The position numbers and the translations under genes were made by a program. From positions 1 to 61,789 of IMG/VR virus record IMGVR_UViG_3300035698_024294: a stretch of 61,789 nt of DNA. One strand, given 5' to 3'. Source of the stretch: a virus. Of this stretch, positions 9,203-59,955 are shown piece after piece; position 1 is the first letter of the stretch, and each line of letters opens with the position of its first letter. The notes below the pieces were generated by a model. It was not told the origin of the DNA. It saw nothing but the letters and a program-made list of their open reading frames with translations, and made no database searches.

Positions 9203-10525
9203 ATGATAGGTTTTTTGAAGAGGTTTTTCAAGATTGAGGAAAACGGGACAAGCATTAAGACAGAAATTACTGCTGGTTTTACAACGTTCCTTACAATGGC
9301 ATATATTATTATAGTTAATCCAGCTATATTAAGTGCTGTAGGCGTTCCATTCGCCGGGATAATGTTTGCAACTATTATAGTGGCAAGTGTTTCAAGTATA
9401 CTAATGGGTCTATATGCAAATTTACCATTTGCACTGGCTCCGGGAATGGGACTAAACGCGTTTGTTGCATTTGGAATGATTCTTGGAATGGGAATTAGTT
9501 GGGAAACTGCAATGGGTGCAGTTGTGATTTCTGGTATAGTATTTATTATTATATCATTACCAAAAATTAATCTAAGAGAGAAGATAGTTAAAGCTATCCC
9601 TAAAACGTTACGGCTTGGAATAGCTGCTGGTATCGGTTTATTTTTAGCATTTATAGGTTTAGTAGATGCAGGAATTATAATTCCTAACGCGGCAACCCTA
9701 GTGGGGTTTTCAGGATTAACTCTAAACTTTGTGTTGTTTTTGTTTGGAATTATAGTTACAGGAGTTTTATTAGCCAAGAAAGTTAAAGGTGCTTTAGTAA
9801 TTGGAATAATTTCTACAGCAATTTTAGCGACGGTAACTTCGCTTGCTGGAATTGGAATGGTAGTAACTTTACCAACTGCAATTTTCGCATTACCAAGCCT
9901 TGAGATTTTTGCACACTTTGATATCTTAGGTGCGTTAAGTGTTGGAATGATTGCTCCACTATTTACACTTCTATTTACTGATATGTTTGATTCAATTTCA
10001 ACATTCGTAGGTGTTTCAGAAGTTGGTGGAATGATGGATGAAAATGGAGAACCTAAAAATGTAGGTAAAGCACTTTTAGTAGATGCAGTATCAACAACGA
10101 TTTCAGGTTTGACAGGAACATCACCCGGAACGACTTTTGTAGAAAGTGCATCTGGTGTTGAAGCAGGTGGAAGAACAGGATTGACTGCAGTAATCGCAGG
10201 ACTTTGTTTCTTGCCATTTATGTTTCTAAGTCCATTACTGAGTTTTATTCCAGTTGTGGCAACGGCTCCGGCATTAGTTATTGTTGGATTGTTTATGATG
10301 TCAGCATTGACAAAATTGGATTGGAAAGAATATACAACTTCCATTCCAGCATTTTTGGCAATGATTGCAATTCCGTTAACTTACAGTATTACCACGGGAA
10401 TTGTAGTAGGGTTTATAACGTATATATTTATGATGGTTTTCGCAAAGAAAATCAGAGAAATTCCAGTGACCTTATGGGTCGTAGGGATGTTCTCAGTATT
10501 CTCGTTAATTCTTACAGTAATCTAA
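9203..10525 (+). CDS. NCS2-family purine (guanine/hypoxanthine-type) permease
   Basis: 440 residues, nearly all hydrophobic helices (about 12-13 membrane segments), normal length for the AzgA/PbuG branch of NCS2. Family signatures are intact: EITAGFTTFLTMAYIIIVNP at the N-terminus, ALAPGMGLNAF, LFTDMFDSI, and GTSPGTTFVESASGVEAGGR. These proteins import guanine, hypoxanthine or adenine with protons or sodium across the inner membrane. It has its own early-type promoter (AAGGAG ribosome site) and terminator, so it is an independent unit. A nucleobase importer is an unusual phage gene and most likely feeds purine salvage during replication. Probably captured from a host. Confidence 0.9.
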   Translation: MIGFLKRFFKIEENGTSIKTEITAGFTTFLTMAYIIIVNPAILSAVGVPFAGIMFATIIVASVSSILMGLYANLPFALAPGMGLNAFVAFGMILGMGISWETAMGAVVISGIVFIIISLPKINLREKIVKAIPKTLRLGIAAGIGLFLAFIGLVDAGIIIPNAATLVGFSGLTLNFVLFLFGIIVTGVLLAKKVKGALVIGIISTAILATVTSLAGIGMVVTLPTAIFALPSLEIFAHFDILGALSVGMIAPLFTLLFTDMFDSISTFVGVSEVGGMMDENGEPKNVGKALLVDAVSTTISGLTGTSPGTTFVESASGVEAGGRTGLTAVIAGLCFLPFMFLSPLLSFIPVVATAPALVIVGLFMMSALTKLDWKEYTTSIPAFLAMIAIPLTYSITTGIVVGFITYIFMMVFAKKIREIPVTLWVVGMFSVFSLILTVI

Positions 10526-14247: not shown

Positions 14248-14411
14248 TGTTAGAGAGTAAAACTAAAAAAAAGATACTCGCCTTGTTAAAAGAGCAAGGC
14301 GGGCATAACGGAATTAGTTATTCAGGAAAAACTGAACTTTATACTATAAAATTTAACAAAGGTATTGTTATCAGTTTATCTTTTGATGAAATGAAGGAAC
14401 TTGAATTTTGA
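14247..14411 (+). CDS. small hypothetical protein between co-chaperonin and uvsW
   Basis: 54 residues, MLESKTKKKILALLKEQGG, ending MKELEF. It overlaps the co-chaperonin stop (TAATG) and the TTG start of uvsW (four bases), so all are translationally coupled. No family recognised. Confidence 0.6.
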   Translation: MLESKTKKKILALLKEQGGHNGISYSGKTELYTIKFNKGIVISLSFDEMKELEF

Positions 14412-16852
14412 AAATATTATTAACTGATTCTTACATAGCAATTGGTGATATATCTAAAGAAGTAATACTCAGCATAAAAGCTGAGTTTACTTATAAGGAC
14501 ATGTCTCAAGCAATGACTTCAAAAGGTTTTAATAAAAGAAAGATCAAAAAAGTATGCTTTGCAAAACAGAAAGGAAGCGCTTTAGTTTTAAGAGCTGGCT
14601 TTATAAAGGAATTACTTTTATTTATTAAAACAAATGGATACTCAGTTTCAGAGTTTCAGGATAAAAGAACTAAAGTAGAAATAAAAAAGTATACAGATGA
14701 ACAGTTAAGAAAACTGTTCGATCCAAAATTCAAATATGTTAAACATCAAATTAATTCGCTTCAAGCTTTATTAAAAACAAATGTAGGAATAATAAAAGCT
14801 CCTACTTCTGCTGGAAAGACTTCTATAATAATAGCTCTTATGAAATTGGTAAATATACCAACATTAATATTAGTTGATAGTGTGTCGTTAGCAACACAAA
14901 CGCTCGAAAGACTTAATGACGCTGGAATAAATTGTGGAATTTGTTATGGTAAAGGAAAAACTGATGGAGACCATGTGATTTCCACAATCGGTTCTTATAA
15001 AAAGCTTGGTGATTTAACCAGATATCAGAGAGTGATTGTAGATGAGTGTTTTCCAGGAGATACGAAAGTATTAACAGAAAATGGAAAAAAAACAATAGCA
15101 TCTTTGGTTAGATCGAAGTCTACTGAAAAAGTTTGGTCTTTCAGCGAAGAAACTGAAGGTTTTGAACTTAAAGAAATTTATAATTGGTATGAAAAGAAAA
15201 CTGAATCTAACTTAATAAAAGTTTGGTTTAACGGAATAGATTTTATTAAATCTACCCCTAATCATAAATATTATGTTTTAGAGAATAATTGTATTTTAGA
15301 AAAAAAGGCTGAAGATCTGAAGATCGGAGATGATTGCGTTGTTATGCCTAAAAAAACAAATAATAATAGAAGCATATCTCCTAAATTAAGTGAAAAACAA
15401 TACAAAGCAGCTATAGGTATGATTATCGGAGATGGTTGTATTCATAAGACGTCAAATCTTGCAAGGTTAGTTTTCTCTCAAGGAGAGGATCAATTAGATT
15501 ACTTGAATTATAAGTTATCTCTTCTTGATAACTTATATCAAAGAGATAATATAGCTGAAGGTGTTTCTGGATATAATGAAGAAAGGATAGTATACAACAC
15601 CTCAACACAGTCTTCTCAGGATTTTCTTGATTTATATGAGAAGTTTTATGTAAATGGTGTAAAAACAATTAAAAATATTATAAAAGAAATAGACGAAGTG
15701 AGCTTAGCTTTTTGGATAATGGATGATGGATGTCTTCAAAAAAAGTCTAAGACGTATGATCTATCAACTCATTCTTTTTCAAAAGAAGATAATGAGTTGA
15801 TAATGAAAGTATTTGAAGAAAAATTCGACATTTTATCAGTATTAAGATACGATAAAAGAATTGGAAAGTATTGGATCTATATAAGAAAAGAATCAACTGA
15901 AACAGTTTCTAGATTAATTTCTAAATATGTTCCTTCCTGTATGAATTATAAGTTGCTTGATGAAGATAAGAATAATTTTAATTTTATTATTGATGATAAG
16001 GTTTCTTATGGGATAAGAAGAGTTAGAAAAATAGAAGAGTTGATTCCTAGATTCAAGAACGTATACAACATATCAGTCAAAGATAATCATAATTATCTAG
16101 TTAATGATAACTTTCTTGTGTCTAATTGTCACATCGTTGGTTCAGCAAGGTTTCAGGAGTTTTTTGAAACAACAAGTTATCCATATAGATATGGATTTTC
16201 AGCAACACCTGATGGAAATGATAAATACAGATATGCTACTATTCGCCAGCATATTGGTGGAGAGATTTTTGAGATTTTTACTGATGAGCTGATGGAAAAT
16301 GAAGTAATGTCAAGACCTAAGATTAAATTTGTTCATGTTGATTGTATTGAAACACCGTCTTGGGATGCTGCGTATGAGAAATGTATTGTAAAGAATGAAT
16401 CCAGAAATAAGAAAATTGTAGAGTTAGCTAATCAGCAAGATGTTCCAACCCTTATTTTATATAAGATTATAGAACATGGAAAGATGCTTGGTGAAATGAT
16501 AGAAGGTTCTGTTGTATTAAATGGTAAAAGTACTGTTGCTGAAAGGCAAGATGCAATTGATAGATTTAAGTCTGGAGAAATTAAGTGTTTAATTGCTTCA
16601 AATATCTTCAAGCAAGGAATTTCTATCAATAACATTCAAACTTTAATAAATGCATCTGGCGGAAAATCAAAGATAGAAGTCCTTCAGAAGATAGGTAGAG
16701 CTCTCAGGCTTCACGAAGGAAAAGATTATGCACTCGTATATGACTTTATGGACGCAGGAAATAAGTATACAGATAGACACTCTCTTCAGAGAGAAAATCT
16801 GTATAGAAAAAATGGTTTTGATGATATAGAGTTTATAGAAGTAGAAGTTTGA
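14408..16852 (+). CDS. uvsW: UvsW-like superfamily 2 helicase containing an intein
   Basis: 814 residues as translated, about 454 after excision of the 360-residue intein (residues 214-573). Starts with TTG. Helicase motifs: Walker A APTSAGKTS (~residue 135), DExH box completed only by splicing (IVDE + CHIVG), motif III FSATP, then the second RecA domain with LIASNIFKQGISI and QKIGRALRL. UvsW rewinds and branch-migrates DNA and removes R-loops in the switch to recombination-dependent replication. It is the last gene of the SSB-uvsX-GroES segment and runs up to an early-type promoter. Confidence 0.88.
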   Translation: MKILLTDSYIAIGDISKEVILSIKAEFTYKDMSQAMTSKGFNKRKIKKVCFAKQKGSALVLRAGFIKELLLFIKTNGYSVSEFQDKRTKVEIKKYTDEQLRKLFDPKFKYVKHQINSLQALLKTNVGIIKAPTSAGKTSIIIALMKLVNIPTLILVDSVSLATQTLERLNDAGINCGICYGKGKTDGDHVISTIGSYKKLGDLTRYQRVIVDECFPGDTKVLTENGKKTIASLVRSKSTEKVWSFSEETEGFELKEIYNWYEKKTESNLIKVWFNGIDFIKSTPNHKYYVLENNCILEKKAEDLKIGDDCVVMPKKTNNNRSISPKLSEKQYKAAIGMIIGDGCIHKTSNLARLVFSQGEDQLDYLNYKLSLLDNLYQRDNIAEGVSGYNEERIVYNTSTQSSQDFLDLYEKFYVNGVKTIKNIIKEIDEVSLAFWIMDDGCLQKKSKTYDLSTHSFSKEDNELIMKVFEEKFDILSVLRYDKRIGKYWIYIRKESTETVSRLISKYVPSCMNYKLLDEDKNNFNFIIDDKVSYGIRRVRKIEELIPRFKNVYNISVKDNHNYLVNDNFLVSNCHIVGSARFQEFFETTSYPYRYGFSATPDGNDKYRYATIRQHIGGEIFEIFTDELMENEVMSRPKIKFVHVDCIETPSWDAAYEKCIVKNESRNKKIVELANQQDVPTLILYKIIEHGKMLGEMIEGSVVLNGKSTVAERQDAIDRFKSGEIKCLIASNIFKQGISINNIQTLINASGGKSKIEVLQKIGRALRLHEGKDYALVYDFMDAGNKYTDRHSLQRENLYRKNGFDDIEFIEVEV
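15047..16126 (+). mobile_element. UvsW intein with LAGLIDADG endonuclease
   Basis: Starts CFPGDTKVLT (block A), has block B TPNHKYYVL, two LAGLIDADG helices AAIGMIIGDG and LAFWIMDDG, and ends YLVNDNFLVSN before Cys+1. The C-terminal residue pair is Ser-Asn rather than His-Asn. Inserted exactly in the DECH box. Confidence 0.92.
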
Positions 16853-27827: not shown

Positions 27828-29117
27828 ATGAGCTTTTCGCACTTACATATCCATTCTCACATTGGAAGTCAATTGGATGGGGTAGGAACGCCTACCCAAT
27901 ATGCCGAATTGGCTAAAAAGATGGGTCATACATCTTTAGCAATTACAGACCACGGAAAAATGAATGGTCATTACGAACACTATCAAGCATGCAAAAAAGC
28001 TGGTATAAAACCTATCTTTGGAGTTGAGGCTTATGTAGAATTTGAGCTTGAAAGAATGGCTGAAGTTAAAGGAAAGGTGAAACGTCAAAGAAATAAAAAC
28101 ATGCATATGGTTTTATTGGCTAAGAACGAGATTGGATATAAAAACTTATTAAAGTTAAATTACTTATCTAATTCAGATGAAAAACATTATTATTACACAA
28201 ATCACATTTTAATTAAAGAAATTTTTGAGCATAAAGAAGGAATAATTATAGGAACTGCTTGTATGGGTTCTCCGTTTGCAAGATTATATAGAGATGATAA
28301 AAAAGATTTATCTGAAAAATTATTCAAGACTTTTAAGGAGCAGTTTGGAGAAGATTTTTACGCTGAAATTCAGATGAATGAAATTACTCATCCTATTGAT
28401 AATTTTGAGCATGGACAAAAATCTGTAAACGAATGGATGATTAGCCTTGCCAAAAAGTATGATGTTCCAATTGTAATGACGGGAGACGTTCACTATGCAG
28501 AACCAGGACTTGATAAAATTCAAACTCTTGCTATTGCAATAAGTAGAAAAACAACTCTTGCTGAATTAGATTGGAAGCTTGAAGGAAAAAGTTTATTCTA
28601 TATGGATGAAAGCGACTTTCATAAGTTTAATGAAGATTGGGATTATGGATACACAAAAGAAGAGATTGATGAATGGTGTAATAATACTCAATTGATTGCT
28701 GACAGATGTGAGTTTAAATTTATGGAAAGAAACAGATTGTTACTTCCGAAGTTTTCTAAGGATGATGATAGTTTATTGATTAAGGAAAGCAAGAATGGAC
28801 TCGTAAATAAAATGAAGCTTTCACTTTGGGAAGAAGTTCCAGTAAAATATAGAAAGCGACTTGTTAGAGAACTTGAAATTCTTTTAAGAAAAGGGTTTGC
28901 AAGTTATATTATGATTCTTTGGGATGTGTTTAACTTTTCAAAGAGAGAAAATATTATGAGAGGCCCTTCTCGCGGCTCTGGTGGAGGTTCTTTAGTTTTA
29001 TATTCCTTAGATATAACAACTTTAGATCCAATTGAATATGAACTGATTTTTGAAAGATTTCTTTCTGATGAACGTTCGATGGATGTTATATATGATTACT
29101 TTGGAGAAGCAATATGA
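27828..29117 (+). CDS. dnaE: DNA polymerase III alpha (DnaE), N-terminal piece: PHP domain and start of palm
   Basis: 429 residues. The PHP domain (1-~230) keeps metal-site motifs: HLHIHSHIGS, ITDHGKMNG, FGVEAYVE, GTACMGS and TGDVHYAEP, so proofreading by PHP is possible. Palm follows: MRGPSRGSGGGSLVLYSL, then TTLDPIEYELIFERFLSDER. In DnaE the next residues are SMPD(I/F)D.D with the catalytic Asp pair; here the frame reads SMDVIYDYFGEAI and stops, so the piece lacks all catalytic Asp. The missing part continues at 32087-33167 after 3 kb of other genes. Ribosome site AAAGGAGATAAA. ATGA overlap with the next gene. Confidence 0.92.
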   Translation: MSFSHLHIHSHIGSQLDGVGTPTQYAELAKKMGHTSLAITDHGKMNGHYEHYQACKKAGIKPIFGVEAYVEFELERMAEVKGKVKRQRNKNMHMVLLAKNEIGYKNLLKLNYLSNSDEKHYYYTNHILIKEIFEHKEGIIIGTACMGSPFARLYRDDKKDLSEKLFKTFKEQFGEDFYAEIQMNEITHPIDNFEHGQKSVNEWMISLAKKYDVPIVMTGDVHYAEPGLDKIQTLAIAISRKTTLAELDWKLEGKSLFYMDESDFHKFNEDWDYGYTKEEIDEWCNNTQLIADRCEFKFMERNRLLLPKFSKDDDSLLIKESKNGLVNKMKLSLWEEVPVKYRKRLVRELEILLRKGFASYIMILWDVFNFSKRENIMRGPSRGSGGGSLVLYSLDITTLDPIEYELIFERFLSDERSMDVIYDYFGEAI

Positions 29118-35496: not shown

Positions 35497-36381
35497 ATGA
35501 ACTATGAAAAAAACTATAATGATTATATTAATTATGTTAAATCTTTAAATAGAAAAAAAAGTGACTGTATGTATTATGAATTACATCATATAATCCCTAG
35601 AAGCTTAAAAGGAACAAACGATGACGGCAATTTAGTTTTGTTGACATATAGAGAGCATTATTTAGCCCATTTTTTATTATGGAAAATTTATAGCAATAAA
35701 GAAATGATGTATTCTTTTTGGTTAATGAATAACACAAAGAGCAAAGTTAAGTTTAACATAAGTTCAAGATTATATGAAAGTCTAAAAACTTCTTTTATAA
35801 AGGCACAAGAGAAAAAAGTTATTTGTTTAGAAACAGGTAGAGTTTTCGATTCTATGAAAAAAGCTTCCTCTTTTTATGACTTAACAAGTGCAGACGGGAT
35901 AAGGATTTCAATAAAGAATAAAAACAGTATTTCAGCTGGATATCATTGGGATTATTATTATGATAATATAGATTATACAAGAGATAAGTTTTACAAAAAA
36001 CAAAAAAATGTATATACTGTTATTAGGCTAGAGGACGTGGAAAAATATCTCTCTTATAAAGAGGCTGGAATAGATAATAACATAACAGGATCTACTATTT
36101 GTGATGCTGCAACTGGCAGAACAAAAACAGCCAATGGATATCATTGGAGTAAATTTGATAGCCTTGTTGATTATACTAAAAATAAGTTTTATAAAAAAGA
36201 AAGAATGTCATTTCCTTCTGGATACAAAAAAGTTGTTTGTATCGAAACAGGAAAAAAATATAATTCTCAGCAAGAAGCTGCTAGAGACATAGGATATAAA
36301 ATATCTGGAGATATAGGCAGATGTTGCGACGGAAAATTGAAGTCTTGTGGCGGATTTCGCTGGAGAAGAAATGAAAATTAA
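35497..36381 (+). CDS. HNH endonuclease with NUMOD1 repeats, inside the split-intein gap
   Basis: 294 residues. HNH core YYELHHIIPRSLKGTNDDGN, then LVLLTYREHYLAHFLL. The rest holds three NUMOD1-like DNA-binding repeats: VICLETGRVFDSMKKAS, an internal copy YLSYKEAGIDNNITGSTI, and VVCIETGKKYNSQQEAA, each ending in (A/G)GYHW or CGGFRW. It lies exactly between the two intein halves and overlaps the C half by 11 bases. It presumably targets intein-free dnaE. Confidence 0.88.
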   Translation: MNYEKNYNDYINYVKSLNRKKSDCMYYELHHIIPRSLKGTNDDGNLVLLTYREHYLAHFLLWKIYSNKEMMYSFWLMNNTKSKVKFNISSRLYESLKTSFIKAQEKKVICLETGRVFDSMKKASSFYDLTSADGIRISIKNKNSISAGYHWDYYYDNIDYTRDKFYKKQKNVYTVIRLEDVEKYLSYKEAGIDNNITGSTICDAATGRTKTANGYHWSKFDSLVDYTKNKFYKKERMSFPSGYKKVVCIETGKKYNSQQEAARDIGYKISGDIGRCCDGKLKSCGGFRWRRNEN

Positions 36382-36472
36382 AAACATAAAAAAAATTGAA
36401 TCAGAAACTGTTTACGATATAAAAGTTAAAGATAACCATAACTTTTTTGCTAATAACGTTTTGGTTCATAAT
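36371..36472 (+). mobile_element. split intein, C half (DnaE)
   Basis: 34 codons ending His-Asn before Cys+1 (36473), matching the N half at 35180. Confidence 0.92.
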
Positions 36473-37615
36473 TGCGATAGTATTCGTGGTCTTATGAAAA
36501 AACTTGGAAAGGCTGAAAAAAAGAAAGAAGATCTTGATAAATGGGATGTCGTTATTAAACGATTTACAAAAGGAGCACAAGAAACTGGTATCTCTTTAAA
36601 AGATGCAAAAAATGTTGCTAGCGATATGCTTAAAATGTCGTCGTACCAATTTAATAAATCTCATGCAACTGCATATACTTTTATTGCAGCTCAAACTTTG
36701 TATTTATCATATTACTTTAGAAAATACTTTTATGCGTCAGTTCTCCATTACGAGGTAGGACGAGATAAGTATCTTTTAGAGAGATTAAAATCTGTTAAGT
36801 CTCAAGGGTTTAACATACTTCCTCCAGATGTAAACAAATCAAAAATAAGTTTATCTCCTGTTAAAGGAAGCGCAAACTCTATTATCTTTGGATTATATGA
36901 TGTTAAAGGTATTGGAGAAGTTCCGGCAACTACTATTAAATCGTTACAACCATTTGATTCAATGATAGATTTCATTCTTAAAATTCAGGGTAAAAGAATT
37001 TCTATTACTGTTATAAAGGCTCTCGTTGTAGCAGGTGCTTTTGATGATATAGAGGATTATGATAAGAAGATTTTATATGAAGCTGTTCTTTTATTCTGGA
37101 AGGATAAGAAGTCGACAAAAGTTCCAGAAAAGTTAGAGCAGATTTGGGATGCTTCTTTACAAACAGTTATAGAGACAACTCTTCCAGCTACGTTTGAGGA
37201 ACAGAAAGACTATGAAAGAAAATCTCTTGGGTTTAATTTCTTTATAAATTCTTTCACAGAAGAGTTCTTATCAGCAATTGATGTTCTTGTCAAGAAAGGA
37301 TTAGCTTATCCGTCAATAGATAAAGTAAGAAAAGGATCTGCTAAAGTTCCTGTAGTTGTTAATAAGATTAAAACCCTTAACGACAAGAATGGTAAAGAAA
37401 TGGCTTTTCTTGATTTAGAAGATCAATTAGGCCAAGACTTAAGCGTTCCAATATTTCAAAGTTTTTGGAAGGTTCTGAAGACAAGGTTTGTTGAAGGTAA
37501 GATGCATATGATAAATTTGTATCTTGATGATGATCAGGTTATGTTCGGAAAGAGTGGATATGTCAGGAAGGATATGGAAATTTCAAGAATGGTGAAGAGA
37601 TTAGATAACCTGTAA
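36371..37615 (+). CDS. dnaE: C-terminal half of split intein fused to DnaE C-terminal piece
   Basis: 414 residues from ATG 36371 (TGGAGAAGAA); an upstream ATG at 36347 lies within the HNH gene. Residues 1-34, MKIKNIKKIESETVYDIKVK to NNVLVHN, are the intein C half (blocks F and G), followed by Cys+1. DnaE continues CDSIRGLMKKLGKAEKKKED, SSYQFNKSHATAYTFIAAQT (fingers), GFNILPPDVNKS, YDVKGIGEVPA (HhH) and an OB-like C-terminal region. A clear clamp-binding peptide is not visible. About 505 DnaE residues result after trans-splicing with the 34805 product. Confidence 0.93.
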   Translation: MKIKNIKKIESETVYDIKVKDNHNFFANNVLVHNCDSIRGLMKKLGKAEKKKEDLDKWDVVIKRFTKGAQETGISLKDAKNVASDMLKMSSYQFNKSHATAYTFIAAQTLYLSYYFRKYFYASVLHYEVGRDKYLLERLKSVKSQGFNILPPDVNKSKISLSPVKGSANSIIFGLYDVKGIGEVPATTIKSLQPFDSMIDFILKIQGKRISITVIKALVVAGAFDDIEDYDKKILYEAVLLFWKDKKSTKVPEKLEQIWDASLQTVIETTLPATFEEQKDYERKSLGFNFFINSFTEEFLSAIDVLVKKGLAYPSIDKVRKGSAKVPVVVNKIKTLNDKNGKEMAFLDLEDQLGQDLSVPIFQSFWKVLKTRFVEGKMHMINLYLDDDQVMFGKSGYVRKDMEISRMVKRLDNL

Positions 37616-39578: not shown

Positions 39579-39842
39579 TTGAATGATTTTTGCAAAGAGT
39601 GTCAGAACCGCGATGTGCCAAAGAGCATAAAAGATAAGTTTAATGAAGGGTTTAAAAACACTTTTGTTGAATGTCCTACGTCTGATAAAAAAGTAGTTGG
39701 ATGCGTTATTCCAATAAACTTTAAGATTAACTGGGATAGTTTTTGCGTTTGGCTAGAAGAACAAAATGATTTAACTGTAAAAGAAGCAGCTGAAATGACT
39801 AAGTTAGGTTTATACAATAAAGGGGGAACTACTACAACGTGA
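39579..39842 (+). CDS. Cys-containing hypothetical protein
   Basis: 87 residues from a TTG start (AGGGAGATAAAACA). CKEC at the N-terminus and further Cys (VEC, VGC) suggest a metal site. Overlaps the next gene by 4 bases. Confidence 0.5.
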   Translation: MNDFCKECQNRDVPKSIKDKFNEGFKNTFVECPTSDKKVVGCVIPINFKINWDSFCVWLEEQNDLTVKEAAEMTKLGLYNKGGTTTT

Positions 39843-40402
39843 TAAAAGAAGAGGTTTCTTATAGATTAGCAAGTGCTTTTATGAAAGAGTATAAGAATTA
39901 TGGTTCTTATCTTTTTTCAATGAGAAATGTCGATAAAACTAAATGGTGGGTTCACTTTGAAAGAGCTGCTGGATATCGTTCTATTGAAGGATGGACTCCA
40001 GAAACTCACGTTAAAAGTTGTTTTGAGAAATATGGAAAAATTCTTCCATTTAGAATTTATGGAAAGACAGCATTAGAAGCTTGGAAAGAATATCATCATA
40101 GATATGATGAACCTAACAAAAATAGTTTTGTTATACAGATGTTAGGCACATATAAAAAGATGAAAAAATGGGGAAACGGATACGATTCAAAATTTTATGA
40201 AGCTAACAAACTGGCTATCAGAAGAAAACTTTTATCAATTCACTTCCTTTCTTTGTCAAAAGCATTTAGAGAATTAAATGAAATAGAGCGATATTATGAT
40301 GATGATATGTTAGACATAAAACGTTCGATTGTTTATACAAACAAAAAATTGTATAGTAAAATGAAAGAATTGTTTAACGACGATTTTTACGAAGGGGAAT
40401 AA
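39839..40402 (+). CDS. hypothetical protein
   Basis: 187 residues from GTG overlapping the upstream TGA. Aromatic-rich N-terminal half (TKWWVHFERAAGYRSIEGW) and helical C-terminal half. Directly precedes the 5'-3' exonuclease gene. No family recognised. Confidence 0.55.
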   Translation: MIKEEVSYRLASAFMKEYKNYGSYLFSMRNVDKTKWWVHFERAAGYRSIEGWTPETHVKSCFEKYGKILPFRIYGKTALEAWKEYHHRYDEPNKNSFVIQMLGTYKKMKKWGNGYDSKFYEANKLAIRRKLLSIHFLSLSKAFRELNEIERYYDDDMLDIKRSIVYTNKKLYSKMKELFNDDFYEGE

Positions 40403-40403
40403 A

Positions 40404-41366
40404 TTGAAAGTATTGATTGACCATATGAACTTTCTGTTCATGGGGTATCACGCAGCACGAAGACAATTAAAAGAAGAGTTTGGAAAAGACGAAATTCTAT
40501 TAGAAGATATGGGTTTCTTTTATCATATACTTTTTAACAAATACAATAACTATTTCAAAACTTACGGACAGTTAATTATTTGTCATGAAGGTAAAGGATC
40601 TCTTGATTGGAGAAGAAATATCTATGATGGATATAAAAGAAATAGAGATAAATCAAAACAAGAACAGTCTTATGCAGATCTGAAAACAACTTTTCCAATT
40701 ATTGAAAAGGTATTAGACTTATATCCAACTAAGCAAATCAAGGTTGATGGTATGGAAGCTGATGATGTAATGTATGCTTTAGCTATGGAATTTGCTGAAA
40801 ATGCTGATGATGTGTTAATTATTTCTTCTGATAAAGATATGATACAACTTAAAAATCATTACAGGAATATTGATGTATACAGTCCAATCATGAGAAAGTA
40901 TTATGAAAAAGTTCCAAACATCGTAATGGAAAAGGCAATTTGTGGAGATACTTCAGATCATATTCCTGGATTGTATAGAGTTGGTCCAAAAACATTAGAG
41001 AAAATGTTAGTTGATAAAACTCTTTGGAATAAAAAAATGGCTGGAGGTAATCAAGAGATTTATGAAAGTTTTCTTAAAATTGTAGATCTAAGCGTTTTTC
41101 CGGAAGAAAAGCATGAAGAAGCAGTTAAACAGTTTTACGAAAAAGACTATAATCTTTTTGACCCAAATCAGATTGAATTGTTTTATTATGAAAATAAAAT
41201 GCAAGACCATCTTGGTCGATGGGGAAACGAAGCAGGAAATATCATAGATGAATTGATGAATAAAGGAATTAAGACTAAACCTTATAATCCATTCAAGAAC
41301 ACAGAGACATCTGTTGAAGTTGAGATTGATACAGAAGTTGATGATTTTTTAAAGGAGTTTGTGTAA
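40404..41366 (+). CDS. 5'-3' exonuclease / RNase H-like (FEN family)
   Basis: 320 residues from TTG. FEN/PIN motifs: VLIDHMNFLF (first Asp), RRNIYDGYKRNRDKS (arch), VDGMEADDVMYAL, ISSDKDMIQL, CGDTSDHIPGLYRVGPKTLE (helix-hairpin-helix). In T4 the equivalent Rnh removes RNA primers and short flaps from lagging strands. The C-terminus ends VDDFLKEFV, close to the SSB tail DDILGEFV. Its stop overlaps the PPAT-like ATG. Confidence 0.9.
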   Translation: MKVLIDHMNFLFMGYHAARRQLKEEFGKDEILLEDMGFFYHILFNKYNNYFKTYGQLIICHEGKGSLDWRRNIYDGYKRNRDKSKQEQSYADLKTTFPIIEKVLDLYPTKQIKVDGMEADDVMYALAMEFAENADDVLIISSDKDMIQLKNHYRNIDVYSPIMRKYYEKVPNIVMEKAICGDTSDHIPGLYRVGPKTLEKMLVDKTLWNKKMAGGNQEIYESFLKIVDLSVFPEEKHEEAVKQFYEKDYNLFDPNQIELFYYENKMQDHLGRWGNEAGNIIDELMNKGIKTKPYNPFKNTETSVEVEIDTEVDDFLKEFV

Positions 41367-41797
41367 TGGAAAAAAAATTAGGAATTTATGCAGGTAGTTT
41401 TAATCCATATCATATTGGGCATGAAGATATTTACCGACAAGCTTCTAAAGTTTTTGATGAAGTTATGATAGCACAATGTTATGATAGAGGAAAGGGTCAG
41501 CCAGCAAATCTTAAGCTAAAAGGAAGAAATGTTATTCACCATGGAGGACTTTTATATGAACTGTTTTATAAAGAATATCAAGTAGGAAAGTTTCTTGTCA
41601 GAGGGCTTAGAACGAGTTTCGATGTTGGGTATGAAAGTGATTTAAGAAATGTGCTTCTCGATTTTGATCCAACAATCAAAATCGTATATTTCTTTTGTAA
41701 GAAAGAACATGAACATGTATCTTCTTCAATGATAAGAAGTTTATATGGTTTTGGAGATGAAAATTATAAAAAATATTTAGTAGAGGGAGATATATAG
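41366..41797 (+). CDS. coaD: phosphopantetheine adenylyltransferase-like nucleotidyltransferase
   Basis: 143 residues, slightly short for CoaD (~160). Motifs: LGIYAGSFNPYHIGHEDI (HxGH nucleotide-binding site), FLVRGLRTSFDVGYESDL (RG substrate loop), then HVSSSMIRSL near the end, as in CoaD and related adenylyltransferases. CoaD transfers AMP to phosphopantetheine in coenzyme A synthesis; a change of substrate in this phage protein is possible. Start overlaps the exonuclease stop and its stop overlaps the next GTG. Confidence 0.75.
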   Translation: MEKKLGIYAGSFNPYHIGHEDIYRQASKVFDEVMIAQCYDRGKGQPANLKLKGRNVIHHGGLLYELFYKEYQVGKFLVRGLRTSFDVGYESDLRNVLLDFDPTIKIVYFFCKKEHEHVSSSMIRSLYGFGDENYKKYLVEGDI

Positions 41798-42819
41798 TGA
41801 TAGTTATAGGAAGTGGAAATTGTGGTTCTAAGTTAGCTACTTTATTTGACGATGATCCAATTCTAATTTCTACAGCTCATCAGGATTCGATGAACTTTAG
41901 TGATTACAAAGTAAATACGTTTACAGACGAAGGATGTGGTAAAAAATATGGAACTGGAGTTAAACTCTGGAATACTCATCTTAAGGAACTTGAAGCTGTA
42001 TTTGAAAAAGTAGATAACGAACAGGTCATTATTTTCTCAAGTATGGGCGGAGGTTCAGGAAGTTCTTCTCTTCAATTTATATCTAAGATTTTAATTGAAA
42101 AGGGAAATGATGTTTTAATTATTGGAGTTTTGCCTTTCAAGAAAGAAGTGGTTCCTCCTTTGGCAAATGCAGTTCAATCAATTAGCAGCCTTATGCCTTT
42201 GATAAATGATATAACAATTATGTTATTCGATAATCAAATATTATTAAAAGAACATAACAATGACTGGACTGAAGTAAATAACAATATAGTTAGAAAAGTA
42301 AATTATGCTGTTAATTTAATTGATAATCATTCAGTTGATGGATATTCTCCATTAACTATTGATCAGTCAGAAGTTGAATCTGTAGTGTTTGGTGGTGGAT
42401 TTTTAGATGTATCGGATGTGTTTCTTGAAGAAAATCCGCCTAAGTTTCAATATGGAAGATTAGACAAAGAAACAAAAAATGTAATGATTGCAATGTTTGT
42501 AGATGAAATGGTTGAAGATGATAAGCTTGAAGACTATCACAAAAAGTTAACTGAGGTTCAAAGCAAATACGCAGGAAGAGCAAAGAACGCAAGGATTGTT
42601 CCTGGCATAATTCGAGGAAGAGTTCTAAATTCATATTCAGAAGAAAAAGTAACTGATAGAGCTTATATCACAATTGCTTCTGGGTTGAATGTAGAAAAGT
42701 ATCTTGTTCGAATAGAGAAACTTAGAGATTTTGCTGTAGAGAAGGCAACTATTTTTTCCAGTAAGATTGTTGGAAGAAAAGTTGTTAGCAATAAAGAAAC
42801 AAAGATACTGGATATTTAA
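41797..42819 (+). CDS. FtsZ/tubulin-superfamily GTPase
   Basis: 340 residues from GTG. The N-terminal nucleotide loop is MIVIGSGNCGSKLATLF, the tubulin signature is SMGGGSGSSSLQF (residues ~83-92; GGGTGTG in FtsZ), followed by IIGVLPFKKEV as in FtsZ GVVTxPF, and LFDNQILL like the FtsZ N-x-x-L segment. A helix with NNNIVRKVNYAVNLI follows. The C-terminal domain is shorter than in FtsZ and has no conserved tail. Phage tubulins (PhuZ, TubZ-like) form filaments that position phage DNA; alternatively this protein interferes with host FtsZ. It is cotranscribed with replication-type genes. Confidence 0.78.
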   Translation: MIVIGSGNCGSKLATLFDDDPILISTAHQDSMNFSDYKVNTFTDEGCGKKYGTGVKLWNTHLKELEAVFEKVDNEQVIIFSSMGGGSGSSSLQFISKILIEKGNDVLIIGVLPFKKEVVPPLANAVQSISSLMPLINDITIMLFDNQILLKEHNNDWTEVNNNIVRKVNYAVNLIDNHSVDGYSPLTIDQSEVESVVFGGGFLDVSDVFLEENPPKFQYGRLDKETKNVMIAMFVDEMVEDDKLEDYHKKLTEVQSKYAGRAKNARIVPGIIRGRVLNSYSEEKVTDRAYITIASGLNVEKYLVRIEKLRDFAVEKATIFSSKIVGRKVVSNKETKILDI

Positions 42820-43334: not shown

Positions 43335-43580
43335 ATGGCGTTAGATCCGGCAGAAAGAAAAGAAGTTCAAAGTTCTTTTCAGTTATGGCTTGAAGTTCAA
43401 GACAGACGAAAAGAACTCACAGTTGAGAATAAAAATATTGTAGAAACGACAGCAAGTCTTTTAGACCAAAAACCAAAGATGATTAACAAACTATTCAAGG
43501 TTTTGCAGTCAAAACTGGAAGATGGTGAAGATGAACTTGAAGATCTTTACAATTTAATGGCTGAGGTTGAAGGCGAGTAA
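43335..43580 (+). CDS. small helical hypothetical protein
   Basis: 81 residues, MALDPAERKEVQSSFQLWLE, acidic C-terminus EDLYNLMAEVEGE. Helical. No family recognised. Confidence 0.5.
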   Translation: MALDPAERKEVQSSFQLWLEVQDRRKELTVENKNIVETTASLLDQKPKMINKLFKVLQSKLEDGEDELEDLYNLMAEVEGE

Positions 43581-46138: not shown

Positions 46139-46482
46139 AAAAGAGTGAAGTTTGTAAGTACGCTATTAAAAAAAGTTCTGATTGGTATAAATGCGAATTG
46201 ACGTCTCCTAAAGGTATAACGAATATATCGTGTGTTGTATGTGCGGAAACTCATGAAGCTCCGCTTGAAGATTTCGCCTTAACTAATTGCGACGTTAGAA
46301 TACGAAATGAATTAAAGAAAATGGAGAAAGAGAAGATGAAAGACGATAAAACAGATGTAGAAATAGAAATTAGCGATGAAGATTTTCTTTTTTGGGCAAA
46401 AGAAGCACACAAACGAGATATTACTATTAATCAAATGATAAATGAAGCATTAAAAAAAATGCTTGAGGAAGAAAATGTATAA
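46135..46482 (+). CDS. hypothetical protein with Cys motif and ribbon-helix-helix-like tail
   Basis: 115 residues. N-terminal Cys residues (VCKYA, KCEL, CVVC) suggest a zinc site; the C-terminal part EISDEDFLFWAKEAHKRDIT followed by INQMINEALKKML resembles the helix pair of small DNA-binding proteins. Overlaps the deformylase start. Confidence 0.5.
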   Translation: MKKSEVCKYAIKKSSDWYKCELTSPKGITNISCVVCAETHEAPLEDFALTNCDVRIRNELKKMEKEKMKDDKTDVEIEISDEDFLFWAKEAHKRDITINQMINEALKKMLEEENV

Positions 46483-46966
46483 ATATAATAATGAAGAATT
46501 AGAATTATCTCCTGCAGAATTAATAGAAAATGTTAAGTGTGATGATGTAACACTTGAAGAGTTTCCGGAAATTAAAAAACTTGGCGAAGCAATGATTCAC
46601 TTCTGTGTAGAGAATGGTGGTATCGGACTGGCTGCTCCGCAAGTAGGAGTTAATCTAAATATGTTTGTTTGGATGAATGGAGATAAACAATTTCAAATCA
46701 TTCTCAATCCAGCCTTGTTTCCAGGCAAGAAGAAAACAAATGTAGTTGAAGCTTGTTTGTCATATCCAGGAGAACACTATTTCCTTACAAGGTCAAAAGA
46801 ATGTAGAGTTAAGTTTTATTACGTTAAAGACGGAGAAATGAAATCACATAGCAGAAACCTTCAGGGAGAAAGATCATTTATCTTTCAACACGAATATGAT
46901 CATCTTAGAGGTGAAACTATAGCAATGAAAGGAACAAGCTTTGGAAAAGAAAACAATAACTCATAA
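46475..46966 (+). CDS. def: peptide deformylase
   Basis: 163 residues from ATG 46475 (GAGGAAGAAA). All three Def motifs: GGIGLAAPQVG, EACLSYPG (EGCLS equivalent, metal Cys) and FQHEYDHLRG (HExxH). Def removes the formyl group from nascent proteins; phage copies occur in marine T4-like viruses and may help rapid protein maturation. Length and metal ligands are intact, so it should be active. It overlaps genes at both ends. Confidence 0.92.
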   Translation: MYKYNNEELELSPAELIENVKCDDVTLEEFPEIKKLGEAMIHFCVENGGIGLAAPQVGVNLNMFVWMNGDKQFQIILNPALFPGKKKTNVVEACLSYPGEHYFLTRSKECRVKFYYVKDGEMKSHSRNLQGERSFIFQHEYDHLRGETIAMKGTSFGKENNNS

Positions 46967-48511: not shown

Positions 48512-49225
48512 TTGTCAAAAAAAGAAAACTTAAAATTACCAAGTGAAATATTAGAACCATATATCATAGTTCATTCATTAAATAATATTTCATTTTTCTT
48601 AAAAATTAAACAGTATCTATTTACAAGTAGTGATAACAAATCATATTTTACAGACAAAAAGCTGCAAAGGATATTTAACGGTATCTGTAAGTGGCATAAT
48701 AAGTTCTCAACCTTTCCGAAAGAGAAAGAACTTCTTATCATAATAGACAAAACAGAAAAAGACGAAGCTGTAAAAATTCTTGTAAAATCGAAAATAAGGG
48801 AGTTATATAATGGAGATCCGGGAGATCTGGATGTTAGATATGTAGAAGAAGAAACAAAGAAATTTATTCAAGAAAATCAAGTATATGAAGCAATACTAAA
48901 TTCGCAAGTAGATATTGATGCAGGAAACTTTGGTGCAATTTCAGAAAGAATGACTAAGGCTGTTACTGTTAATTTTGATAAAGATTTAGGAATTAGTATT
49001 CGCGATGTAGCAGCCGGAATTGCTGAAATCAATTCTCTGAACGATGAATCAGTTATTCCTTCAGACTTTGATACGTTAGATAGCGAATCGGTGTTAGATG
49101 GTGGATTTCGTAACGATGAAATTTATGTATTCGCTGCAATTCCTGGACTTGGAAAATGTTGTTTTCGGGATATAAAGGTAATGATATCCTACGAAATTGA
49201 TACAGAAACTGGAGAAATAATGTAA
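48512..49225 (+). CDS. gp41/DnaB-type replicative helicase N-terminal piece fused to a 22-residue N-intein
   Basis: 237 residues from TTG (AGGGAGAAGG). The N-terminal domain and linker lead to DGGFRNDEIYVFAAIPGLGK, the start of the RecA-type Walker A. The intein begins at Cys216, CCFRDIKVMISYEIDTETGE, and the frame stops after 22 intein residues. Cys1, Asp and Val match block A. The rest of the intein and the helicase core are in the 49344 gene. Without trans-splicing the P-loop is broken and the helicase is dead. Confidence 0.9.
   Translation: MSKKENLKLPSEILEPYIIVHSLNNISFFLKIKQYLFTSSDNKSYFTDKKLQRIFNGICKWHNKFSTFPKEKELLIIIDKTEKDEAVKILVKSKIRELYNGDPGDLDVRYVEEETKKFIQENQVYEAILNSQVDIDAGNFGAISERMTKAVTVNFDKDLGISIRDVAAGIAEINSLNDESVIPSDFDTLDSESVLDGGFRNDEIYVFAAIPGLGKCCFRDIKVMISYEIDTETGEIM
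49157..49222 (+). mobile_element. atypical split intein, N half (helicase)
   Basis: 22 codons only, split right after block A. This resembles the atypically split class with very short N halves such as AceL-TerL. Confidence 0.88.
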
Positions 49226-49347
49226 TGGGGAGAGCAGAAAGAGAGTTTATTTGTATAATTTGCGGTAAAACTTTTCTAAGAAATATGAAAAACAAATATC
49301 AAGACAGATTAGAAATAAAACACGATCCATATGAGGAAGCTAAGTGA
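49225..49347 (+). CDS. small Cys-pair protein in the split-intein gap, possible endonuclease remnant
   Basis: 40 residues, MGRAEREFICIICGKTFLRN, one zinc-finger-like CxxC. It overlaps both flanking genes (TAATG and GTGATT). In other fractured genes a homing endonuclease fills this place; this may be its vestige. Confidence 0.55.
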   Translation: MGRAEREFICIICGKTFLRNMKNKYQDRLEIKHDPYEEAK

Positions 49348-49763
49348 TTAAAACAATAACAGAAGAAATAGAAGTTGGAAAACTTTTTAAGAAATTAAAC
49401 ATTAATAGCCAAGGAACATATAAAGCTCCATCCTCATTAAAAGTAAAAACTGTTGATGGATATAAAAAAGTTAATGGATTATTAAGAACTCAACTCAATC
49501 CAGAATGGGTTGTTAAAACCGAATCTGGAAGAGAGGCTATTTTTGCTGATAAGCATAAATTAGAAGTAAAGAAATCTAATATGCTTGATGTTAATAGATT
49601 TTGGAAGCATGTAGACAATTTAGTAATTGGAGAAGAAGTAAATACAGAAAATGGTTGGGAAAAAATAACAGAATGTTATTTTAATGGTAATGAAAGCGAA
49701 ATGTATGACATGGAAGTGTCTAAGGTTAAGAGCTTTTATGCTAATGGATTTAATTCGCATAAC
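49344..49763 (+). mobile_element. atypical split intein, C half (helicase)
   Basis: 140 codons ending Ser-His-Asn, then Thr+1 at 49764. No endonuclease domain inside; total intein 162 residues. Confidence 0.9.
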
Positions 49764-50447
49764 ACAGCTTTGCTTGGAAACATTGCTGTAAATTCTTTCC
49801 TTCAGGGAAAGAATGTTTTAGTGTATACTTTTGAAACATCTAAGAAGAGACTTCTTTCAAGGTATTACTCAAATTTAATTGAAATGACTAAGAAAGAGAT
49901 TATAATAGATAATCAAAAGACAGAAGATGAACTGAATAATGTAATGGCACAAACTACTGGAGATATTATTCTAAAAGAATATCCGGCAAATACAACATCT
50001 TCTAATGACCTTCTGGCTCACATTAACGACTTGTGGCTTTACAAGAAGTGGAAACCTGACATTATCATTGGTGATTATATCTTAATTATGGCAGCTAACG
50101 ATAAATCATTAAAATCAGATAATTCATATAAATATTATAAAACTGTAACAGAAGAATTTAGAAATTTATGTTGTTTGCTTCACATACCGGGAGTTTCAGC
50201 AACGCAGATAAACAGAGCAGGACAAGATGATCGTGGTGGTTCAAAAGCATTAACAACATCAAAAGATATTTCAGAAAGTCGTGGTATTTACGATACAGCA
50301 GATTTTTTCGCTACTATAAATCAGACAGCGAAAGATAGAGAATTTGGTAAGATTATGATTTACGTCGACAAAAATCGCAACTCAAATAAAGGAGCGAAGA
50401 TTAAAATGAGCATAGACTATGAACATATGCGCTTTAGTGAGATATAA
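49344..50447 (+). CDS. C half of atypical split intein fused to helicase core
   Basis: 367 residues from GTG. Residues 1-140 are the large C half: MIKTITEEIEVGKLFKKLN, block B-like ADKHKLEVK, block F EMYDMEVSKVKSFYANG, ending FNSHN before Thr+1. Splicing gives PGLGK + TALLGNIAVNSF, an intact Walker A. Helicase motifs follow: VLVYTFETSKKRLLSRYYS, DIIIGDYILIM (Walker B), VSATQINRAGQDDRGGSKAL and YVDKNRNSNKGAKI. It is the gp41/DnaB-type fork helicase partner of the primase. Confidence 0.92.
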   Translation: MIKTITEEIEVGKLFKKLNINSQGTYKAPSSLKVKTVDGYKKVNGLLRTQLNPEWVVKTESGREAIFADKHKLEVKKSNMLDVNRFWKHVDNLVIGEEVNTENGWEKITECYFNGNESEMYDMEVSKVKSFYANGFNSHNTALLGNIAVNSFLQGKNVLVYTFETSKKRLLSRYYSNLIEMTKKEIIIDNQKTEDELNNVMAQTTGDIILKEYPANTTSSNDLLAHINDLWLYKKWKPDIIIGDYILIMAANDKSLKSDNSYKYYKTVTEEFRNLCCLLHIPGVSATQINRAGQDDRGGSKALTTSKDISESRGIYDTADFFATINQTAKDREFGKIMIYVDKNRNSNKGAKIKMSIDYEHMRFSEI

Positions 50448-58296: not shown

Positions 58297-59955
58297 TTAA
58301 TTAGCGGAATATCCGGTTAGTGTAACTTTGTGATACATAGTGTTTCCACCGTTTACTTTTGTTATTCCAAATCTGTTAATGATTGCTTGAGTTAATGAAA
58401 AATCAGAATTTGTAATTGTATTTCCAAGAGCAATTACATATGGTGAATATACAATTCCAGCACTCATATTTCCAATTGGCTTTTTTCCTACATACATATC
58501 ATATGATGTAGTGTCAAAAGTATTTACGTAAACTTCAAGATAATCAAGCTTTCCAATTTTACTTATAGGGCCAAGAGTTGGTTCTGCAGAAGCAACGAAA
58601 CCAGGCATCGATGTAATAAGTTCCTGAACAAGAGTTGGAACAATAATAAAATTAGCCAATCCTTTTCTTGTCGCCGAAGCTATGTTTCCAGAAGCTCTCA
58701 TAATAGCAACTTTTAATTCATAAAGAGAATTAAGGAAGTTTACTGTTGAACTCCAATCAAAACCGTCAGAAATATCAACAGTTGAAGTAGTTGTTGCTTT
58801 TGTAACTTCTACTCCTGCAGTTGCTGCATCTACTCCTGTCAATAATGTTATTAATGACGAACCAAGAGCAGGAGCTGCTATTAAAATAGAAGACGATGTT
58901 AAAGAATCTGAAGTAACTCTAATTTTTCCATCACCGTCAATTGTAACTGTAACAGAAACTGCACCAGTTACAATATCAGCATCTTCATTTATTGCTGTTT
59001 GAATAGCTGTTATGATATCTGCAAATGTTTCATTAGCGGCTAAAGCTACAGATAAATCTCCAGAACCTGCGATTCCATCTACTGTTACAGTAAAAGTATA
59101 ATTTTGGGCTAAAGACGTTGTTGGATCTGTAATAGATGTGAAAGTTTGATAACCAGAAACGGCATCGATTCCGGTATATGTTGCTGCGGTAAATCCTAAA
59201 GTTGATAGACCAGTTCCTCCAGCATCTATTATAAAATTACCATCAATTCCATCTACAGTAGCTGTTAAAATTATATGAGTTGCATCGTTAGTTGCGATTA
59301 AAGTACTTGGTAAAGTGTTGTTTATTAAATTTTGAACTTCTGTAATGTTTGTAGTTACTTTATTTAATAGTATTGAAGATACTCCAGCATTTAAGCCAAT
59401 AACTTCTGTATTATTATCCCAGCTATGATTTATTGCTGTATGATAATCTGAGTGAGCTTTTATTGCTGCTATGATATCGTAATCAATACCTGCTGCAATT
59501 TCGGCACCAACTGTTTTAACTTTTTCACCTTCAAGGTTAAATTTTAATGTTCTTAAATCTTGAGCTAATTCTTGAGTGTAGTTTAACTTAGCTTTTCTTG
59601 TTTTAGCTACTACTATTGATTCTTTTAGTTTAAGCACTAAGTCTGGTATATCGCTGTTTTCTGATATTTCAGAGAAAGCATTATTAAATGTATCAACGGC
59701 AGACGTACCAGATATAACATTACCTGCGGCGTCTTGAATGTCGATACCGTAAACTCTACCTTCCTTAAAATTGATTGGTTGAACATCAACAAGTTCTTTA
59801 GCTACGAGATTTTGCTGAACGTGAAATATTAATGGTTTAACAAGTTCTTGGCTAAAAGAACTATCGGCAGTTGCTGTTAGAGCTTCGTTCAAATTGTTCA
59901 ACATTATCTCTGCTGTATTTTTATCTTCTTCATTTAGGTTTTCAAAATAGTCCAT
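58297..59955 (-). CDS. 23: major capsid protein (gp23-like)
   Basis: 552 residues. T4 gp23 landmarks: FSQELVKPLIFHVQQNLVAK followed by ELVDVQPIN, VVAKTRKAKLNYTQELAQDL, and in the C-terminal half GLANFIIVPTLVQELI, LDYLEVYVNTF and MSAGIVYSPYVIALG. Between them (~residues 205-395) is an inserted Thr/Gly-rich beta region with two TVDGI(D/A)G segments, probably surface exposed. The N-terminus MDYFENLNEEDKN to NNLNE followed by ALTA gives a short propeptide with LNE-A, like the T4 I-A-E cleavage site. Late-type motif upstream. Confidence 0.85.
   Translation of the reverse strand: MDYFENLNEEDKNTAEIMLNNLNEALTATADSSFSQELVKPLIFHVQQNLVAKELVDVQPINFKEGRVYGIDIQDAAGNVISGTSAVDTFNNAFSEISENSDIPDLVLKLKESIVVAKTRKAKLNYTQELAQDLRTLKFNLEGEKVKTVGAEIAAGIDYDIIAAIKAHSDYHTAINHSWDNNTEVIGLNAGVSSILLNKVTTNITEVQNLINNTLPSTLIATNDATHIILTATVDGIDGNFIIDAGGTGLSTLGFTAATYTGIDAVSGYQTFTSITDPTTSLAQNYTFTVTVDGIAGSGDLSVALAANETFADIITAIQTAINEDADIVTGAVSVTVTIDGDGKIRVTSDSLTSSSILIAAPALGSSLITLLTGVDAATAGVEVTKATTTSTVDISDGFDWSSTVNFLNSLYELKVAIMRASGNIASATRKGLANFIIVPTLVQELITSMPGFVASAEPTLGPISKIGKLDYLEVYVNTFDTTSYDMYVGKKPIGNMSAGIVYSPYVIALGNTITNSDFSLTQAIINRFGITKVNGGNTMYHKVTLTGYSAN

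Follow-up and report, generated by a model that had tools for sequence, protein, structure and literature searches.

A tubulin/FtsZ-superfamily GTPase encoded among T4-type genes and a bacterial-type DNA polymerase III in a viral contig, and its relatives

The tubulin locus and its genomic background

The window (the whole stretch of viral DNA that was analysed, 61,789 nucleotides in length) contains, at positions 41797 to 42819 of the plus strand, a gene for a 340-residue GTPase of the tubulin/FtsZ superfamily, an assignment that draws on Pfam, PHROG and PDB matches, a structural model and fold searches. In the window's list of open reading frames the gene opens with a GTG codon at 41797, overlapping by one base the stop codon of the preceding gene, and its own stop ends at 42819; a GAGGGAG resembling a ribosome-binding site lies 5' of the start, and the start residue is common to all six of the relatives described below, which carry ATG in place of the window's GTG. 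Upstream on the same strand are a gene for a CoaD-like protein of the cytidylyltransferase fold (41366 to 41797; PF01467, 1.2e-9), a FEN-type 5'-3' exonuclease gene (40404 to 41366; PF02739, 1e-22) and a gene for a 187-residue protein with no assigned function (39839 to 40402), the last being conserved 5' of the tubulin in six of six relatives. An earlier note on this DNA, made from the sequence alone, had named FEN and CoaD-like genes as neighbours of the tubulin. The FEN gene is indeed there, and in four of the seven family contigs (the window, L003, L009 and L010, hence three of the six relatives) it or a homologue precedes the tubulin by no more than about 1 kb; the CoaD-like match holds in the window but was found in none of the six relatives, and its presence is an accident of one genome.

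Further upstream, also on the plus strand, lie an amino-terminal part of DNA polymerase III alpha that includes a PHP domain (27828 to 29117; PF02811, 2e-33; PF07733, 2.4e-27) and a carboxy-terminal part that follows an intein remnant (36347 to 37615; PHROG 405, 1.9e-46, with HHH_6 and intein matches). The tubulin is found downstream of polymerase III alpha in all seven contigs, and the order polymerase III alpha, a 153-residue protein, the 187-residue protein and tubulin is kept in every one of the six relatives. On the other side of the tubulin, two small genes recur in L003, L009 and L010; an 81-residue reading frame (43335 to 43580, plus strand) is conserved in the same three contigs. A gene order of the rnh-dsbA-like kind is familiar from T4, and the 81-residue product was considered as a possible DsbA-like protein; that identity was dropped, its match to PHROG 639 being weak (E 0.15). 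In five of the seven contigs a conserved gene for a protein of 81 to 90 residues lies within about 1 kb 5' of the tubulin (L004, 9559-9816; L005, 9755-10000; L006, 9004-9252; L009, 9544-9816; L010, 9749-10000), and no match to it was found at E <0.3 in the window or in L003; this protein is a possible partner of the tubulin.

The earlier note had also described the surroundings as a T4-type replication operon. In support of that description, the window encodes a T4 Gp23-family major capsid protein (58297 to 59955, minus strand; PF07068, 2.4e-25), a gp32 single-strand binding protein (PF08804, 4.4e-13), UvsX, UvsW, 46/47, Dda, DnaB/gp41, a primase and a T4 baseplate protein; the polymerase found there, however, is the bacterial-type polymerase III alpha with its PHP domain rather than T4 gp43, which makes this a hybrid lineage, T4-like only in part. 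Polymerase III alpha was detected in seven of seven family contigs and in Bacillus phage G, and in neither contig G007 nor any of three chimalliviruses. Gp23 was found in two of the 12 records searched, namely the window, itself a 61.8-kb fragment, and a relative of 201 kb, the other family contigs being fragments of 26 to 71 kb.

Several additional features of these contigs were recorded. The polymerase III alpha of the window is spread over four reading frames, with endonuclease genes and intein sequence in between, and inteins or their remnants, together with homing endonucleases, also occur in the UvsX-like, UvsW and perhaps DnaB genes (the regions concerned being 11780-13930, 14408-16852, 36347-37615 and 48512-50447). 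The window further encodes a 440-residue transporter of the Xan_ur_permease family (9203 to 10525, plus strand; PF00860, 4.5e-39), whose best PHROG (27398) bears the label 'tail protein' and looks misannotated; within the phage collection, many tblastn matches to this transporter fall in contigs that are bacterial or lack annotation. A peptide deformylase (46463 to 46966; PF01327, 2.6e-26) is kept in L003 and L009. Directly after the tubulin in L004 (12052-20477) and L006 (11025-16240) stands a set of nucleotide-sugar or glycan genes, in which translations judged by eye are epimerase-like, GHMP-kinase-like and aminotransferase-like.

Superfamily membership, nucleotide-binding residues and predicted fold

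The window protein is a genuine member of the tubulin/FtsZ superfamily, with homology that lies far beyond chance. It matches the Pfam Tubulin model (PF00091) at 6.6e-15, with 56.3 bits where 33 are required, a threshold that was also exceeded by three of three relatives searched with that model (of the six in hand). Its sole PHROG match is the PhuZ family (PHROG 4733, 6.9e-6), and PDB chains of CetZ, FtsZ and TubZ are matched at 1.5e-4 to 2.6e-4, those of CetZ and FtsZ being about equally distant from it. The NCBI equivalog model for FtsZ gave only 26.2 bits against a required 295.2, and the protein is therefore to be regarded as a tubulin-superfamily protein and not as FtsZ, an identity that was dropped. 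Together with the fold and with six full-length relatives, the Pfam match upholds the tubulin/FtsZ-like GTPase of the earlier note, the position of its reading frame included.

The two nucleotide-binding signatures reported earlier are both present, the second in variant form, and both are recognisable in an alignment of 34 rows. The T1 loop (residues 5-10, G-S-G-N-C-G; 41809 to 41826) follows the pattern G-x-G-N-x-G, with G5, G7, N8 and G10 invariant in the seven family members. The T4 phosphate loop (residues 84-90; 42046 to 42066) reads GGGSGSS in all seven, a serine replacing the last glycine of the textbook GGGTGTG. The signature pattern of tubulin T4 loops, [SAG]GGTG[SA]G, is accordingly unmatched throughout the family; PhuZ members deviate from it as well (GGGSGSV in 201phi2-1), so that superfamily membership does not strictly depend on the signature. 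The T7 or synergy loop, located by alignment (residues 187-192, T-I-D-Q-S-E; 42355 to 42372), supplies D189 and E192, whose counterparts in the aligned FtsZ and PhuZ sequences are the catalytic acids; both are invariant in seven of seven. The stretch formed by T7 and the part that follows it is the most conserved of the protein: 30 of 63 positions are invariant in residues 177-239, the corresponding counts being 58 of 176 for residues 1-176 and 25 of 87 for residues 240-326.

All seven proteins end in x-L-D-I, within a tail of low model confidence. In the window this end is part of K-x-L-D-I (42802 to 42816, plus strand, as for the three loops), of which K336, L338, D339 and I340 are invariant across the family; bacterial FtsZ sequences in that alignment carry carboxy-terminal peptides such as LDIPAFLR. 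The last 25 residues of the window protein hold 2 acidic and 6 basic residues, as against 5 acidic residues in four of the six relatives, and an acidic carboxy-terminal knuckle of the PhuZ type was not seen in the window protein.

An AlphaFold model of the window protein (pLDDT 80.3, pTM 0.82) was built from 30 aligned rows, among them other tubulins including FtsZ and other phage tubulins; when only four family members were supplied, AF2 gave a poor model (pLDDT 52.8), which was kept out of the fold searches. With other tubulins thus in the alignment behind it, the model has a whole-chain tubulin fold, its VIA-align Z-scores to TubZ, CetZ, PhuZ, FtsZ and tubulin ranging from 24 to 29. The best match was a TubZ (Z 28.9 over 310 residues), followed by CetZ (27.3 and 27.2), the TubZ of c-st (26.8), PhuZ (25.2) and FtsZ (about 25). 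Among the 50 Foldseek matches listed, all were FtsZ, TubZ or CetZ. In BFVD ten matches fell below 0.001, the top one, from an uncultured phage, being labelled 'FtsZ Cell division GTPase'; the names given were those of tubulin, PhuZ, FtsZ or cell-division proteins, apart from one uncharacterized protein.

Relatives, phylogenetic position and the absence of detectable nucleus genes

Six relatives, all full-length and on independent IMG/VR contigs, are 52-70% identical to the window tubulin (L003, 70.3%; L004 and L005, 55%; L006, L009 and L010, 52-53%), that of L003 being located in a contig of 201,184 bases. They were reached stepwise in the viral contigs, an alignment of the window protein with a Cetobacterium protein leading to three, then a fourth, then two more; single-protein queries of the same contigs (the window tubulin, FEN and the Cetobacterium tubulin) returned no relative, and alignments alone reached them. 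In the phage collection (50,697 records) tblastn gave no match for the window tubulin at E 1, none for the Cetobacterium tubulin at 0.01 and none for the window capsid protein. In the plasmid collection one protein proved similar and was the nearest there, a tubulin from a Cetobacterium somerae plasmid (28.6% identity over 73%). A scan of genome contigs with an alignment as query produced 161 pattern matches and no relative, and a second such scan, led by Escherichia coli FtsZ, provided 80 FtsZ-like loci as material for the trees.

Pairwise comparisons among the window protein and its six relatives gave dN values of 0.12-0.44 against saturated dS values of 1.3-2.6; full-length relatives with so low a dN indicate a real gene under purifying selection, which is apparently strong. 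Across the relatives the tubulin (52-70% identical) is better conserved than the adjoining polymerase III piece (39-59%) and than a neighbour that falls as low as 25%. In L004-L006, L009 and L010 the tubulin is 52-55% identical to that of the window and the polymerase III alpha piece 39-43%, while for the 187-residue neighbour the figure is 25-38% in L004-L006 and L009; in L003, by comparison, FEN (77.5%) is more similar than the tubulin (70.3%).

A first tree was calculated from the seven family members, 8 PhuZ proteins (201phi2-1 and 7 of 141 records), 10 TubZ-like proteins (the plasmid TubZ rows being 8 of 37 records), 8 FtsZ proteins (7 of the 80 genome loci and E. coli) and the tubulin of contig L011. 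The family occupied one side of a branch supported at 100/100, as did FtsZ and, without the family, the 8 PhuZ rows. A second tree of 42 rows, which omitted three FtsZ rows of the first, took in 11 new tubulins, 14 of the 23 loci from the scan described below having entered the fold alignment; PhuZ again formed its own 100/100 group without the family. The Cetobacterium protein joined the family at 93/97 in the first tree, with a warning for long branches, and made no clear join in the second. Approximately unbiased (AU) tests rejected no union of the family with PhuZ (p 0.269), TubZ (0.155) or FtsZ (0.112). The phylogeny with FtsZ, PhuZ and TubZ that the earlier note had proposed thus returned a well-supported clade of the seven tubulins and picked none of the three groups as its partner, all three joins being left standing.

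The chimallin family (PHROG 4795) and the nvRNAP family (PHROG 2987) were each detected in three of three chimalliviruses and in none of eight IMG/VR tubulin contigs, phage G also being negative. A direct search with the chimallin protein found no match in the window and four relatives, with 201phi2-1 positive. Seven of the eight contigs do not exceed 71 kb, and the eighth, of 201 kb, is possibly incomplete, so that absence is no proof; the 201-kb contig constitutes the strongest case for a lack of nucleus genes. As far as these contigs allow it to be judged, the earlier view that this tubulin lies outside the nucleus-forming phages is supported.

One further scan returned 23 tubulin loci, of which 3 repeated family contigs, 1 repeated L011 and 1 was Bacillus phage G, whose gp138 is already annotated as FtsZ-like; these five had been covered by the earlier searches for chimallin, polymerase III and Gp23. 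The other 18 contigs contained no match to chimallin or to Gp23 (0/18 each, positives being confined to separate runs), and 3 of the 18 contained polymerase III alpha. At least two further tubulin clades emerged, each at 100/100. One, a second lineage of 450-residue proteins, comprises L110-L113 and L011 (3861-5213, beside a UvsW-like helicase gene) and occurs in large phage contigs, one of them 406 kb in length; the other (L121, L123, L126, L128 and L130) is found on contigs of 25-250 kb with no match to chimallin, polymerase III alpha or Gp23. Since none of the 18 contigs carries a detectable chimallin, tubulins outside the Chimalliviridae are not rare, even if a part of these contigs may be fragmentary or derive from plasmids, and the earlier statement that phage tubulins are known mainly from nucleus-forming phages and prophages proves too narrow.

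Possible functions and comparison with known systems

The favoured explanation, to which a probability of roughly one half is assigned, is that the protein would assemble into cytomotive filaments and so position or segregate phage DNA, or the sites of its replication, in a cell that has no chimallin nucleus. Its observed basis comprises the superfamily, the GTPase residues, the fold model, the synteny, the purifying selection and the lack of a detectable chimallin or nucleus-type RNA polymerase; from these we infer polymerisation, motility, cargo and timing, conservation itself being silent as to cargo. In FtsZ and tubulin, the acids of T7 are established to act on the GTP of the neighbouring subunit. 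In the proposed mechanism, GTP would be bound between T1 and T4 of one subunit while the T7 loop of the next supplied D189 and E192; because such acids work across subunits, hydrolysis would need head-to-tail polymerisation. The tubulin would be produced along with the replication proteins, in a T4-headed phage with polymerase III alpha and no chimallin nucleus, and the resulting dynamic filament would push or carry its cargo (phage DNA, replication sites or capsids) inside the host cell, as the filaments of PhuZ and TubZ do, or would anchor it there.

Among the alternatives, a TubZ-type partition system, in which the filament would segregate phage genomes kept as an episome (in pseudolysogeny or as a phage-plasmid), is the main rival, though unlikely. 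TubZ is the best fold match, the Cetobacterium plasmid tubulin is the nearest plasmid-collection sequence and joined the family in one tree, and the small gene 5' of the tubulin in five of seven contigs invites comparison with a partition locus. TubZ partition, however, works with the DNA-binding protein TubR and a centromere, and nothing recognisable as a winged-helix or TubR-like gene flanks the window tubulin, where FEN and the CoaD-like enzyme lie upstream; the small upstream protein (in its L004 copy) has no match to a helix-turn-helix family, whereas seven of eight plasmid TubZ loci have a gene of about 100 residues just 5'. The Cetobacterium join carries the suspicion of long branches meeting and is no longer clear in the larger tree. 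ParA (PF13614), which was detected in the Cetobacterium plasmid, was found in none of the seven family contigs, and an integrase (PF00589) in none of the seven, with no phage or plasmid record positive and 14 of 14 control genomes positive; these absences, that of TubR included, are weakened by fragment length. No iteron array was seen at the locus, its repeats being chance-like or coding, and two TubZ control loci were weak in this respect too. In view of the missing TubR and plasmid genes the TubZ label was dropped. FtsZ-like segregation during pseudolysogeny of jumbo phages is nonetheless described in the consulted part of PMC7824862, which favours partition.

A true PhuZ spindle, belonging to a nucleus-forming phage whose shell gene is too diverged or lies on a missing part of the genome, is very unlikely. 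The PhuZ PHROG is the only PHROG match, the AU test allows the family and PhuZ on one side, and the GGGSGS box is common to the PhuZ of 201phi2-1; against this, PhuZ forms its own group without the family, chimallin and nvRNAP are missing from the 201-kb relative and seven other contigs, a Gp23-type capsid is present in the window and in that relative, a search of three chimalliviruses having returned none, and no acidic tail is seen in the window protein. With a PHROG match as its sole basis, AU tests that single out no partner and no acidic tail, the PhuZ label was likewise dropped. Interference with host division, by which the protein would co-polymerise with host FtsZ or compete for its partners so that septation is blocked during replication, is improbable: the x-L-D-I end of all seven proteins might, as a lead only, represent mimicry of the FtsZ tail, but the likeness consists of three or four residues spotted post hoc and does not extend to the P-x-F-L-R half of the FtsZ peptide, which the family lacks, and identity to FtsZ is only 18-20%. 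Comparably improbable is a tubulin-derived, GTP-binding regulator that does not polymerise, to which the changed last glycine of the T4 box in all seven members would point, since the T7 acids that act across the polymer interface are invariant and their region is the best conserved. Of the cytoskeletal or anti-division role that the earlier note had suggested, the cytoskeletal half is thus the likeliest reading, and the anti-division half lacks direct support beyond the hint in the tail. A scheme that merges the two, with the tubulin clade as a core gene of the replication block in T4-headed phages with polymerase III alpha, whose spindle or track would organise viral DNA without a nucleus while x-L-D-I docked onto host division proteins that bind the FtsZ tail, is speculative and improbable.

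In the consulted parts of earlier studies, PhuZ is described as present in about two thirds of chimalliviruses and as dispensable (PMC10299810, PMC11724907); the biology of PhuZ and TubZ, including the acidic knuckle of PhuZ, is covered (PMC7950403, PMC3678025), and tubulins of huge or marine jumbo phages are told along with nucleus genes (PMC7162821, PMC9123017, PMC13282480). PMC7824862, in its consulted part, distinguishes two types of FtsZ/tubulin in jumbo phages, assigns polymerase III alpha to group 3.2, phage G and c-st, and reports that tubulin correlates with multisubunit RNA polymerase, a correlation, as given there, to which the window family runs counter. Titles and abstract openings, within a literature from which preprints and most subscription papers fell out of scope, mentioned no tubulin in phages with Gp23 and polymerase III alpha; what is new is the clade and its genomic setting, the kind of protein being already known. 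Phage tubulins have so far been discussed mostly as nucleus-positioning spindles or as plasmid-style partition motors, and this family, conserved in T4-headed phages whose polymerase is of bacterial type and in which no nucleus genes were detected, offers a setting in which to study the role of a viral tubulin where there is no nucleus. It also raises the question of whether a filament that first served to organise DNA was only later turned to positioning a nucleus.

When these tubulins are compared with known systems, PhuZ (of 201phi2-1, PhiPA3, RAY and others) resembles them in being encoded by phages, in the lack of a long amino-terminal extension, in the T7 acids, in a GGGSGS-type T4 box (201phi2-1) and in the fold (Z 25.2), and differs in sequence (13-18% identity), in its separate 100/100 clade, in its acidic tail, not seen in the window protein, and in phages with a chimallin, a nucleus-type RNA polymerase, a different polymerase and a capsid other than Gp23, so far as the records searched extend. 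The TubZ of plasmids and phage-plasmids (TubZRC) provides the closest fold matches (Z 28.9 and 27.0) and shares the T7 acids, but is only 17-21% identical and is set apart by TubR, recognised nowhere beside the window tubulin, and by the ParA and integrase genes that went unfound in the family contigs. Phage G gp138 and the L011 tubulin likewise come from phages with no detected chimallin, phage G also having polymerase III alpha, yet they are 18-21% identical, fall outside the family clade and have no Gp23 match in either record. CetZ and FtsZ, finally, share the fold (Z 24-27) and stand at a similar distance in sequence searches; FtsZ is distinguished by the 26 bits that the window protein scores against the equivalog cut-off of 295, and by a carboxy-terminal peptide of which the family tail has only the first letters.
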